The notes beneath the pieces are model-generated. The model saw only the letters and a program-made list of their open reading frames with translations. It was not told where the DNA came from and ran no database searches. Shown piece by piece: positions 640 through 17,700 of a DNA stretch of 56,933 nt. Made by a program: the position numbers and the translations under genes. This DNA comes from Paratrimastix pyriformis (Eukaryota; Preaxostyla; Paratrimastigidae). Each line of letters begins with the position of its first letter. The stretch's first letter is position 1. The DNA lies in contig JAPMOS010000150.1 of NCBI GenBank assembly GCA_027972325.1, positions 25,001 through 81,933 of the forward strand, in the 5' to 3' direction.

Positions 640-669
640 GGGGCTGTAGATCACTTGGTAGATCGTCCG
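640..669 (+). pseudogene. tRNA-Ala(GGC), 5' half (split by element E1)
   Basis: This 30-nt stretch has a complete acceptor 5' strand (GGGGCTG), TA, a D arm (GATC-ACTTGGTA-GATC), G26 and the start of the anticodon stem (TCCG). The remaining part of the tRNA is 4.6 kb away at 5255-5302. Joined at the duplicated GTCCG, the halves give a canonical 73-nt tRNA with a seven-base-pair acceptor stem (one G-T pair). The break lies in the 5' strand of the anticodon stem, so this copy cannot make a tRNA as it stands. Confidence 0.85.
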
Positions 670-686
670 TAGATTCTACGTCAGCT

Positions 687-11700: not shown

Positions 11701-14700
11701 CCGGGCCAAGAAGCAAACCCAGATAAGACAACTCCTTGGGGCCAATGTTGGCCTTCTTGACATTCAAACGGAGGCGATGGAGTGGCCCGTTCCAGTGCAT
11801 GTCGCAGGCCAGAAAGAAACTCGGGGAAATCCCGTCCTCCGATGCCAAGGTCATCCTGATAGACAACCGTCCGGGCCAGGTTAGAGAAGATAGTCGAGGT
11901 CTGCCTCTGGAAGTAGGAGGGCCCCGAGACAACCCCAAAGGGCAGACGAAGAAACTCAAATTGTCCATGGCTTGAGGTGAACGAGAGCAGCGGAACGCTT
12001 TCTGGGGCCACGGGCGCTTGATTGAACCCGGCACTGAGATCAAAAGAGGCCAAATAACCACAGCCCCGAAAAACCGAAGTCAAGTCGTTGACCATCGGCA
12101 ACGGGAAAGCCTCCTGAGCAGTCCGGGAATTCAGTTGAGAAAAATCCACACATAGTCTCCAGCCGCCACCACGCTTGGGGGCGACTGTCAGTGGAGCAGC
12201 CCAGACGCTCCGTGATGGACGTATAACGCCCGCAGAAAGCCAGTCATCAATCTGTCTCTTCACGAAGGCCTCCTTTTCCCCGTGAAAACGTCGGGGAGGT
12301 CGAGACAGGGCTGGCTCCGGGCAAGAGCTGAACCCGGAAAGGCTCCATCACAGCGGGGGAAGAAGTGAGTCCCCCGAAAAGATGCGCAGACTCGCCGAGA
12401 AGGTCGGTAACCTGCTGGGCCTCGGGGTCGGTGAGAACATCACGGCGAACAACAGGAAGGGTCGGTGCGGCCTTCCCAAGGTGAGGCTGATCAGAAGCAG
12501 GTTCAATCCACACGGGCGAGGGTTCCGAGACTCCAGAAGGCGAAGCAGCAAGAGCGGCGATGCGCGGAGCAGCAAGAGCGGCGATGCGCGGAGCAGCAAG
12601 AGCGGCGATGCGCGGAGCAGCAAGAGCAAGGGCGGCCAAATCAGGTTGGCCGTCAGAATCAAGAGCACCAGGGGGACCGGCCAAAACCAAGCGTCCCACG
12701 ATGGCCTCACCACCATAATCATCATCACCCAGATCATTGTCGTCATCATCAACGGGGATGTTGAGAGGAGTGATGGTTGGGGTATCGCCAAGAACCAGGC
12801 CATGACCCCGCAATTCAGAGAGACCCACCAAGATCAACGGGTCACGGCCCAAATGATACAAGACAGCCTGTTGAGGGTGACATTCGGGGCTCAGCCTCAA
12901 AGTAACGGGACTGAAGCGCTGAACAGAAGTACGGCTGCCGTCAGCGAGCAAGACCGAGCGAATCGGCCCGTCCTCCACGACAGGTAGTGCCAGATCATGC
13001 GCAAAGGCCGGCGAAATAACAGAAATCATTGCGCCAGTGTCAAGGAGAGCGGGCGCAGACACCCCGTTCACAACAACCGTTGTGGTCAGCTGAGAGTCAA
13101 GCTTCCCAAAAGACGGGAAGGTGACAGCGGTGGTAGCTGTCCCAGAGCATGGAGTGGTGGCCACAACGGAGGCTGAAGGTGCAGAGGTGCCAGCCGGTAC
13201 AACAGGGGGTGGGCAGGTGACAGGCTCAACAGGAGTGGGAGGGACCCCGGCAGGTGGTGGGCAGGCTTGGAGAAGCCGCAAGTGGGCCGGGTTCCGCGAA
13301 CGGCGTGGGTACCGTCCGCCGCCGAAAGTAGGAGTTGATGTGGTGGGAGTACCCAAGGGAGCTGGAGACGAGGTCGGAGGAGGTGGAGCAGGGGCAGGTG
13401 GACGGTTGGGGGCCAACCTCGGGGCCCCGTTGTTTTCGGGATGATACCTGCTCCGTCCGGGAATTCCATGATTGTTGCCCGGACAATCCGAGATCGTATG
13501 ACCGGAGGAGTGACACCAAGTACAGAGCCCCTGGTCACGAAGGCGGCTGCGCTCAACGGAGCCCCGCGAAGTCGGATGCGGGGAACCAGAGGCGTGGCCG
13601 GAAGGAGCGGAGGCAGGCTGAAAAGGGCAGCTCACCGCGAAGCGATCACGGAGGTGGCCGATAAAGGAAGCCCAAGGAACTCATCCTTGACCATGTCGCC
13701 AAAGAAACCGCGGAAAGACTTGAGAAAGAGTTTCGCGGCGGCCTCAACCGGGAACTTCAATCCGTCAACAAATCTGAGGAACTTCCAAATGTGTTCCTCA
13801 AGAGAGAAGGCGATTTGCTCAGACGTCGGTGGAGGAGAAAAGACGAGCGAGGACAAAAGACGGGTGCGGAGGAAATTTGATTTCGGTCGAGAGATGTCGT
13901 AAAGCGAATCAAAGAGATCTTCACAAGAATCAAAGCAATGTTGATTGTAACGCAAAAGAATACCCACCGCAGAAGGAGGGACCAATTGCCTCAAATCAAC
14001 CGGAAGTCCGTCGATCGATCCAATAGTCTGTGAGATGGTGTCCTCAAATCTCACACACTCTTCAAAGTTCAAGATGTTGCGGAGACGAGGAAGATTCGGC
14101 AAAGGTGAAACAAAAGCTTCCGGCTTCATGCTCCGAATCTTCGACGGCAAAAGAATGGTGGCGAATTTCTGTCTAGACATGGTGTAGCAATTACCAGGCA
14201 CTCGTTGAAATCAAGAAAAAAGGAGAAGTGCCCAGTATCGATACTGTGGGCAGGGTGGTGTGCAGAGAGGGTGCCTGCACGAGTATATTACCCAGGCGAA
14301 CTATCCTATTCCAGACGCCTTGTACAACACGCACACGTTTGGCATCCGACAAGATCGCCATACAAAGGGGGCCCCATGGTGGCTCAACGACTATCATGCA
14401 GATAGTCATAAAAATCACTGAGTAAGGGTTTTTAATGATGGGGATCATGAATATGATCAAAAAAGTTCAAAAAAGTTCAGTTAAAAATTTTCACTGCAAT
14501 GTGATGGCCTCGGATTCCCTATAGAAAATCGAAAAATGTGACAGACACCATTTTCATATCTCAAACGATAGCCCACACCTGGGGCACCACGGAACGTGCC
14601 ACGGGGTCGTCCGCTGATGGACGGTTGGGGAGATATGAGGTCGACATAGTGTCATTTCTTAACAAATCGGATAACTTATGGGATACAATAACGTCGCGGG

Positions 14701-17700
14701 AAAAATTATGGGAACCCAAAAAACGTTGGTTCCGGGGGTTTCCCCCCATGGCGGAAACGATGGCGGGGTCTATTTTGCTCGCCAGACACCTTGCCACCTT
14801 GCCACCCGCGGCGGAACGAAATGTTTGGCTCTACTGCCAAGTAAGCTACGAAGGCGATCGATGAGGCCGGGCAGGGAGAAGGCAGCCTGAAATCAAGTTT
14901 GTGGGTCGGGGGGAAACGTCTCCATGATGGGATGTCCTTATCAGTGTCCCAGATCACGCCCATGTCCCACCCACCCACATAATCTGCTGGCGCCGGTTTT
15001 GTTTCGATGCGGTGGAACACGGCACGGACCTTGGACTGGCAGTCCCGCTCGGGATCGTAATCCCACCGCTTCAACTGCAGCTGCAGCACCGGCGGCAGCG
15101 AGGTGAACCGGGTGCCCTGAACAGAAGCGAAGCAGCACAATGGGTGGTGATGATGTGGACGATGATGGTGACTGGGTGATGGGTGCTGATGACTGGGTGA
15201 TGATGATGGCTGGGCGATGGCGATAATGGTGTGCGATTGTGCATGGGTAGTGGGTGGATGGTGGTGGTGTTGTAGCGGTGATGGAGATTCAAACCTTCTT
15301 GGCTCGCTGCAGGCCGAACCCTTCTGCCCGGTATGCGTTGGCCCCTTCGAGGGTCTCGGGCTCGATGTAGCGGCCGAAGCTGGTCTCAAGGCCTGGCGAT
15401 CCCTTGACCACAAGACTGCGCGTGTGGAGGCGAAAGGATGGATGGAAAAAAAGCTGCTCGATGCAGGGATCGAACCTGCGACCGTTGCCTTATTAGAGCA
15501 ACGCTCTACCGACTGAGCTAATCGAGCAATCATTTCCCAAGGGCTCCCGCGGGCCATTCTGTCGCATGTGAAACAAACTCGTGTTGACGGCGTCTTTGCG
15601 AGCGAACCGGAAAAACAATTATGGGATTCGGAAGACTGCAGATCACAATGGAAGGAAGCAAAAAAAAGGCAAAAGATTAGCGACCTACCGGAATCGAACC
15701 GGTGACCTGAAGATCTGCAGTCTTCCGCTCTGCTACTGAGCTAAAGTCGCTCTTGATGAAAACCTGGCAGGGTGAGGCGTGCCCCATCACAGATTCACCT
15801 CAATTATGACTCAAGCTCCGGCAGAGGGCGACCCACACGTTTCGTACTCCCCCCCCCCCCCCCCCCCCCTCAAGAATTCGCCAAAATAGCCCACTTCAGG
15901 CAGGAGAGTCCCCAAACCAACAACGCACTCGCAGGCACGGATCAATTTTTTGAAGGGAAACGCATGTGCTCCCAGGTGAAAGCGTATTGAGGAGGTGTCC
16001 GAATCGAGGTGAGTTGATTGAGTGTCCTGGTCTGAACAGTGGGATTGTCCAAGTGTTCATAAGATGTCATCATCCGCCAAGGTGATTCATCCCCTCGGGC
16101 AGGAAGAGAGACAGGCCAAAACGGGGCACAAACGCGGAGGAAGAGACGAATACCGCATAAAATTCGAAGATCGAACGCACGAAACGCGTATTGAGATGGA
16201 CTGTAAATCAGAAAAATCGTCGACGTTGGGTCACAGCGTGATGGTTGCACCCCCCTTTCTTCCTGCTGGTCTGGGATTGATGACTCCAAGTGTGTTCATA
16301 AGATGTGCCATACATCAGGTGATCAAGGTGACATGGAAGCCAGCCCCAATTGTTTTTAGTACGGCGTACGTCTTCCAAAGTGGATTGGCCTCAAATTCGA
16401 CGTGTTCAGCGAAAAAGGGTCACATTAGAAATCTTTGGTTTGCAGAATGCTGTAAACGAGCCACCGGCGGGGTCATCAGGTAAGGTGGCGTACAGAAAAT
16501 TTATGGGACTCGTAAAAAAAAAAAAATGGGTGCGGCGGCGGACCTCAAATCGAAGAACGGCTCATCTCGGATGCTCTCGTAGTTGACGTCCATGCAGCGA
16601 ATGTAGTTCTCCATCCGACCTTCGAAAAGCCGCGACACAGTGCCATCCATCGGAGTGCTCTGCACCCAGAACAATCAGCCCATTGCGGAAGAGATAAATC
16701 GGTTTAATGATTCGGGTGCTGATGGAACGTGCTAACTGTCACAAAACCCATGAATGCAAGGATGGCCGAGCGGTCCAAGGCGCCAGTTTAAGGTACTGGT
16801 ATCTTCGGATGCGTGGGTTCGAACCCCACTCCTTGCAAATGATTTTTTTGCACAGACCTTCATTTTCTCCAGCAGGTTGTCCATCAGGACCCGGTTCAGC
16901 TCCTGCACGTCGTGTTGGGTGAACGAGTCGAGGGTCGTCCAGCCGAACGACTCCGTCAGGTCCGTGGTGGCCACACTGGGTGGTGCGCGCAATGTGGTGG
17001 TGTCAAGCGTCTTTCATGATGCTCCGCTCTGTGGGTGAGGTGTCATTGTGTCGTCATCCTCCTCGTGGATGCGTCTTCCATGTCATGCTCCGCAACCTCT
17101 GTGGGTGAGCAGCGACATGGTGTCATTGTGTTGTCATCATCCTCGTGTATGCGTCTTCCATGTCTGTGGGTGAGCAGCAACAATGTGTCATTGTGTTGTC
17201 GTGTGTGTGCGTCTTTCATGTCATGGGCCTCAAATCTGGTCAAAAAACCATAAAATAGGGAGAGAACTCCAACCTGTGGAAGATCTCTCCGGCGGCAGTC
17301 GTGTGTGAAGCCTGTGTGCGTGTGACCAACAACAGCGTGTGCTCCGGCCTGGCGCTGTCAAATTGGAGCCTGTCTTGTGTCACCAGTCTCAGCAGCGCTC
17401 CATCCATATGATGCGTCTCATCACCACCCCAGTGTCACCAGTCTCGGCAGCGCTCCATCCATATCATGCGTGTCATCACCACCCCAGTGTGTCACCAGTC
17501 TCGGCAGCGCTCCATCCATATCATGCGTGTCATCACCACCCCAGTGTGTCATTGTCAATGTACTCAACTGCATTGCGCCACCGAAACCGGAGCCTGTTGA
17601 AGAGCTGCTGCGGAGGGGCGTGGTGTCCGATCGCCAATCTTTGTAAGTGTTTTATCGCTTCAGAAACAGAAGATGATGGAAATAACCAAGAAAACTACTT

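Follow-up and report, generated by a model that had tools for sequence, protein, structure and literature searches.

In the literature examined, the DNA transposons aimed at transfer RNA (tRNA) genes are the Dada elements, mostly with one fixed sequence per family. The parts of the published descriptions considered here locate Dada insertions inside tRNA genes, with hot spots at the A box and near the anticodon. They report a duplication of 6-7 base pairs (bp), Dada-U6 and U1 families without terminal inverted repeats (TIRs), and generally one fixed site per family, at nucleotides (nt) 8-13 or at the anticodon (PMC3706591; PMC8869645). Some Dada families (Dada-tV), according to the same partial accounts, use more than one isotype. 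Here we analyzed a 56,933-nt stretch of the Paratrimastix pyriformis genome, hereafter the window (assembly GCA_027972325.1, contig JAPMOS010000150.1 or C58, positions 25001-81933), which holds two TIR transposons, E1 and E2, each splitting a tRNA gene, and we followed their relatives through the genome (56,060,509 bases in 495 contigs). In titles and abstracts, with subscription papers, preprints and Repbase mostly outside the scope, no description was found of an element with TIRs that enters many tRNA genes and makes 3-bp duplications; the nearest systems in these partly covered sources are Dada and Pokey.

Copies across the genome and their target sites

The preliminary description of the window had E1 splitting a tRNA-Ala gene and E2 a tRNA-Thr gene. 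Both tRNAs, Ala(GGC) and Thr(AGT), were indeed called by ARAGORN once the flanks of each element were joined. E1 and E2 are members of related TIR transposon families in this genome, which we sorted by their ends into subfamilies 1a to 1f and family 2, names coined here; E1 belongs to subfamily 1a and E2 to family 2. Their layout is not due to chance, because further copies across the genome share the pattern. Genome searches with the TIRs scored 40/77, 40/76, 40/63, 40/65 and 40/77 first-look candidates, so the copy numbers given here are lower bounds. Both ends could be read in 40 copies and one end in 13. For each two-ended copy, the element and one copy of the repeat were removed, the flanks were joined, and an ARAGORN call spanning the junction was sought. 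A tRNA was restored in 36 of the 40. The restored tRNAs carry 15 isotype labels, and all 36 combinations of anticodon and position are distinct. Thus, this transposon family is found almost only within tRNA genes; the genes are of many kinds, and their first half is entered at many different points. Genome-wide, the copies neither lie mostly outside tRNA genes nor vary freely in the distance from TAG to TIR, the two outcomes named beforehand as counting against a tRNA-targeting family.

The isotype labels are those of ARAGORN, which typed the tRNA at C157 as '???'; the label count is 15 either way. Two restored genes labeled Ser-cga (C471 and C278) are probably tRNA-Tyr with an intron, and one labeled Gln-ttg (C5) is probably tRNA-Ser. 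Among the four two-ended copies without an ARAGORN call, C484:53k has a tRNA-Ser match by BLAST on both sides, corresponding to a tRNA-Ser with a deletion, and C36 a tRNA-His match by BLAST on one side only. Six of the 13 one-ended copies match tRNAs by BLAST, including C349, a likely duplicate of C234, and three (L041, L085 and C313) were taken as tRNA-like by eye only, on the strength of motifs resembling an A or B box. Four partial hits without ends (L051-L054) and the weak hits C212, C467, C51:82k and C235 were left out of these classes. In 34 hand-assigned copies, the 5' side of the tRNA was faced by the A-type end in 15 and the B-type end in 19, giving no clear orientation rule. None of 46 pattern matches in viral contigs was confirmed. 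Several non-autonomous family-1 copies (L026, L031, L032, L034 and L037) contain very long TCA/CAT-type microsatellites, at which contigs C146 and C31 may be broken.

We then measured the target site duplication (TSD), after setting fillers aside by hand in eight copies. The longest direct repeat was exactly 3 bp in 34 of the 40 two-ended copies. The duplication length, first taken to differ freely between elements, therefore follows a 3-bp rule. An exact repeat was present in 31 of the 36 restored tRNAs. The duplicated triplet was CNG in 15 of these 31 and, more narrowly, CAG or CTG in 12, whereas CNG makes up 6% of the background triplets at nt 5-44 of the same tRNAs (binomial p=6e-11). Local site choice is a palindromic CWG, as a preference. 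Only a weak base bias, judged by eye, was seen in the aligned 6 bp on each side of the TSD.

Insertions start at nt 5-42 of tRNAs 71-87 nt long (36 sites), so that the stretch hit spans nt 5-44, and the median start lies near nt 20, just 3' of the A box. Under uniform choice, the chance that all 36 starts fall at or before nt 42 is 1.3e-9, a figure to be read with the limit of nt 42 having been chosen at the observed maximum and with ARAGORN numbering that may shift by one. Weighting by the triplet preference gave 11.8 starts expected after nt 42 and 0/31 observed (log10 P = -6.55), CNG sites being equally common on either side of that limit (79 before, 73 after). Since a tRNA should be destroyed by an interruption at any point, this bias is not easily put down to selection and should reflect targeting. 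Nor is there a single target sequence, since the 36 combinations of anticodon and position are all distinct.

In E1 the repeat can be read as GTCCG. The same AC stands outside TAGGCCCTCC in E1, in C495:30k (97% identical to E1) and in C367, suggesting from the sequence that GTCCG may consist of CCG and a filler of 2 nt, which fits the 3-bp rule; the case is ambiguous, a 5-bp duplication being the other reading. An extra AC outside the TAG is possible at seven ends in three subfamilies, including the right end of E1 (L017 left, L022 right, L031 left, L032 left, L037 right, L046 left and window 5255-5256). Other fillers are an AG at C112:12k and 9 nt at C101.

Element ends and the organization of E1 and E2

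All four ends of E1 and E2 read TAG-N14-TTC, in keeping with the layout TAG-N14-TIR of the preliminary description, with the TIR starting 17 bp inside the junction. We tabulated 90 ends, with C101 (2 ends) and C241 (1 end) outside the count. The spacing of 17 bp from junction to TIR was constant, and the TIR started with TTC at 82 ends and CTC at 8. TAG stood at -17 in 76 of the 90 and is thus not universal: among the 14 ends without it are degraded ends and the right ends of subfamily 1e, which have CTG. The outer 17-mers had been thought unconserved. This holds between the two ends of one element, where N14 matches at 7/14 positions in E1, 5/14 in E2 and 4 to 10 of 14 in the 25 copies compared, but not for a given end type across copies, as TAGATTCCACGTCAGCT recurs at 13 ends and TAGAGCCAAACATTTCG at 10. 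The two ends of an element are therefore unlike each other, because their 17-mers differ at a fixed distance from the TIR. Over about 340 bp, the two TIR arms of most copies compared were 98-100% identical; over 340 bp, the figure is 98.5% in E1 and 100% in E2.

E1 extends over 4585 bp from TAG to CTA (670..5254). It is preceded by the 5' half of tRNA-Ala(GGC) (640..669, plus strand), whose final CCG (667-669) is one copy of the duplication, and followed by the 3' half (5255..5302, plus strand), in which CCG at 5257-5259 is the second copy; the GT at 5255-5256 is filler or part of a 5-bp duplication. On the left, the end-specific 17-mer TAGATTCTACGTCAGCT (670..686, plus strand), identical at 6 ends and present as a one-base variant at 13 further, adjoins the TIR arm (687..1040, plus strand). 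The right TIR arm (4884..5237, minus strand) is followed by TAGGCCCTCCGGCAACA, written from outward to inward (5238..5254, minus strand), which is identical at 4 ends. A predicted transposase gene occupies 1098..4477 on the minus strand. The left arm also contains an exact RNA polymerase III (Pol III) B-box consensus, GGTTCRANNCC (877..887, plus strand). This consensus lies about 207 bp inside both TIRs in subfamilies 1a-1e, where examined, as GGTTCAAAACC or, in 1e, GGTTCGAACCC, and is kept across the diverged subfamilies, with a chance of about 0.005 per TIR by mononucleotide shuffling. As a targeting signal it would be an aid at most, for it is absent from family 2, which still targets tRNAs.

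E2 (8788..14833) splits tRNA-Thr(AGT) on the minus strand, with the 3' part at 8735..8787 and the 5' part at 14834..14855; CTG at 14834-14836 is the second copy of its 3-bp duplication. Its left 17-mer, TAGGCTGCGACTATTCC (8788..8804, plus strand), is a one-base variant of one present at 6 ends, and its right 17-mer is TAGAGCCAAACATTTCG, from outward to inward (14817..14833, minus strand). The TIR arms (8805..9266, plus strand, and 14355..14816, minus strand), 462-466 nt long and 100% alike, would almost touch at the center. Between them lies a Ty3/Gypsy-type long terminal repeat retrotransposon with a chromodomain, foreign to E2 proper (9273..14336, minus strand) and bounded by identical 92-nt direct repeats (9273-9364 and 14245-14336). 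E2 proper is thus a non-autonomous palindrome about 1 kb in length, which the nested retrotransposon has split open.

Repeats of about 60 bp that contain CCCATAATTTTT stand in tandem at 6529-7076 and elsewhere; the motif is also found in the E1 and E2 TIRs and beside tRNAs. Long GC-rich repetitive stretches at 27782-32764, 42437-46222 and 51944-55252 are open in many frames and hold near-identical copies of one repeated unit.

The predicted transposase and the choice of tRNA genes

The E1 gene was modeled by eye from the sequence. Its 10 predicted exons, on the minus strand (4477-4352, 4305-3922, 3799-3202, 3149-2927, 2833-2546, 2496-2318, 2269-2131, 2085-2014, 1972-1868 and 1749-1098), are separated by introns that are mostly GTCTG...AG, with GTCTG-type donors, and encode an uninterrupted predicted protein of 921 amino acids. 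A genome search with its D1-D2 frame matched, besides E1, only C495:30k and a paralogue on C313; the large open frames of several further family-1 copies are translations of simple repeats. Over the aligned core, the paralogue on C313 is 36% identical to the E1 protein. It adjoins a subfamily 1e TIR, and this kind of protein is therefore tied to these ends. Against 5.8 billion proteins, E1 residues 330-750 yielded no homologue among 6383 candidates at E<=1e-3, and a two-sequence profile none among 6086 candidates at E<=1. Taken by themselves, the first four open reading frames matched nothing in Pfam at E<=1. With the whole protein, hmmscan at E<=10 returned only PF13843 (DDE_Tnp_1_7), and no PHIS-type (PIF/Harbinger) domain.

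Similarity to piggyBac is weak, although its several signs agree in direction. The E1 motif PGVTLCLDEKLFGWSG...PNKPDKIG resembles piggyBac PGAHLTIDEQLLGFRG...PNKPSKYG. D1 and D2 are 78 residues apart, as are D268 and D346 of piggyBac in the part of PMC7351741 considered here; D2-D3 spacing is 129 in the E1 protein versus 101 in piggyBac. In the Protein Data Bank (PDB), a profile of the two cores ranked Trichoplusia ni piggyBac first (0.047) and piggyBat second (0.51), and hhalign of this profile against piggyBac proteins gave E=2e-4.

We think it probable that the copies and ends observed here, with their 3-bp duplication, CWG bias, location in tRNA genes and restriction to nt 5-44, are the work of a DDD piggyBac-like transposase, inserting at CWG with a stagger of 3 bp and tethered to tRNA genes by the Pol III machinery. 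The E1-type gene would encode this enzyme, with piggyBac-like catalytic motifs, and would serve as the active transposase of both families. The enzyme would pair two ends, each consisting of an end-specific 17-mer and a long TIR, and cut at the outer edge of the 17-mers in what may be cut-and-paste chemistry. Which CWG is taken would depend on tethering to a tRNA gene that the Pol III machinery is binding or transcribing, and insertion would be confined to what lies between the B box and the region of TFIIIB upstream; TFIIIB and the B-box-bound part of TFIIIC would leave exactly the hit stretch open. The use of almost any tRNA gene, and of almost any CWG in its first half, suggests recognition of a gene class, most simply through that machinery.

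Several observations weigh against this reading. Among the two-ended copies, C494, which contains N, and C485:295k lack an ARAGORN tRNA and are tRNA-like by eye only. Four degraded one-ended copies (L047, L086, L087 and C241) show neither a tRNA nor an intact 17-mer. The TTAA target and duplication of piggyBac are absent, a 3-bp CWG standing in their place. The Pfam match to PF13843 has E=0.13 and 12 bits, below the curated cut-off of 22.4, and the C313 core by itself matched no piggyBac in Pfam or PDB. E-values in the PDB ranged from 0.023 to 0.51, with antibody matches close behind, and the hhalign comparison of the two-core profile with piggyBac proteins carried a probability of 47% only. 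An AlphaFold model of the read-through D1-D2 stretch, from a 4-sequence alignment, was unusable (predicted local distance difference test score 34.5). The piggyBac affinity put forward in the preliminary description thus survives as a likeness of transposase motifs, with membership only suggestive, and the E1 protein is best called piggyBac-like rather than filed within piggyBac.

Different accounts of the tRNA location can be set against these data. The transposase itself might read a loose tRNA motif, the A box and a nearby CWG, with no host protein, as proposed for Dada. We consider this unlikely: the CWG preference at the cut and a median start around nt 20, past the A box, speak for it, and sequence recognition has been argued for Dada in the part of PMC8869645 considered, but the sites range over nt 5-44 and 15 isotypes with none alike in anticodon and position, and the bases outside the TSD are only weakly biased. 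The many isotypes and sites make a fixed target sequence unlikely, unlike in Dada. Wide insertion followed by purging of copies outside tRNA genes, with numerous tRNA genes acting as a safe haven, would draw on a large reservoir (1695 first-look tRNA candidates, of which 63 were scored and 63/63 lay above the cut-off). Yet intergenic DNA, introns and repeats should be equally safe, and the restriction to the first 44 nt would stay unexplained, since any interruption kills the tRNA. The genome also holds clear piggyBacs (13 PF13843 matches on 7 contigs); two usable loci, L062 and L063 (on C135 and C288), have inverted repeats CCCC(C)TTAATGTAC and contain TTAA, and joining the flanks of these 2 loci, of the 7 contigs, at TTAA gave no tRNA and no tRNA BLAST match. 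Purging is accordingly very improbable as the cause.

The multiplication of a few insertions by segmental duplication of tRNA clusters may account for C349, which shares its flank with C234 and is likely to be a haplotig or a duplicate; for the bulk of the copies it is refuted by 36 distinct anticodon/position combinations in 36 copies, and we give it almost no credence. No more credible is the idea that TAG-N14 is a coupling sequence, host DNA carried from the previous site at each jump. N14 does differ between the two ends of an element, but the same 17-mers recur at unrelated sites (13, 10, 7, 6, 6, 6 ends, etc.), which refutes the idea for the 17-mers and confines it to the fillers outside them (2-nt AC, 2-nt AG and 9-nt).

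Tethering by the Pol III machinery also enters a broader proposal, which we advance tentatively as somewhat less probable than not: that these elements constitute a major new clade, which might be a sister superfamily of piggyBac and in which the Pol III apparatus, not sequence, would direct the transposons to tRNA genes as a class. The guide could be, for example, TFIIIC at the A and B boxes, possibly helped by the B-box-like site in family-1 TIRs. For a new clade at the superfamily level as such, there is a fair chance. The system may reveal how a mobile element locates an entire gene class rather than one sequence, and it opens to test the idea that a cut-and-paste transposase is targeted by protein tethering. 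The family would also provide a piggyBac-like enzyme that uses a 3-bp CWG in place of TTAA, and it is a lead for safe-site integration tools. Other protist genomes could be scanned for such elements by their split tRNA genes, a convenient signal.

Comparison with known systems

Like Dada, these elements insert into small multicopy RNA genes (36 of 40 two-ended copies). They differ in having a duplication of exactly 3 bp in 34/40 copies, at CWG, long TIRs, and many isotypes and sites, 36 distinct combinations, within single subfamilies. The view that this tRNA-targeting family is not Dada-like was thus borne out by its 3-bp duplication and its many isotypes and sites, Dada being set apart here by the published description of its duplication, TIRs and site use and not by protein comparison. 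The Dada transposase is marked by a DDE domain with DxxH and by two zinc fingers, CCCC at the N terminus and CCHC at the C terminus. A 3-bp CWG duplication is shared with the NuwaI group of the PHIS superfamily (PMC4482050), whereas the E1 protein has no PIF/Harbinger Pfam domain at E<=10, and the part of that paper considered here does not mention tRNA targeting.

With piggyBac the likeness lies in the sequence of the D1 and D2 motifs and their order, their spacing of 78, and distinct left and right ends, those of piggyBac being unlike each other as well (PMC7351741, in part). Besides the target, the differences are TIRs of about 350 bp or more here versus short asymmetric ones, and whole-protein similarity below curated thresholds. 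Pokey, a Daphnia piggyBac family, likewise prefers a multicopy RNA gene, according to the portion of PMC3849761 considered.

The retroelements Ty1, Ty3, TRE5 and Skipper-2 also use Pol III genes regardless of isotype, and for them tethering to Pol III factors is the established mechanism, as set out in the part of PMC5911963 considered here. Unlike E1 and E2, they are described there as inserting upstream or downstream of the tRNA and not inside it. If our reading is true, the elements described here would be a cut-and-paste counterpart of Ty1/Ty3 tethering that inserts inside the transcribed gene.

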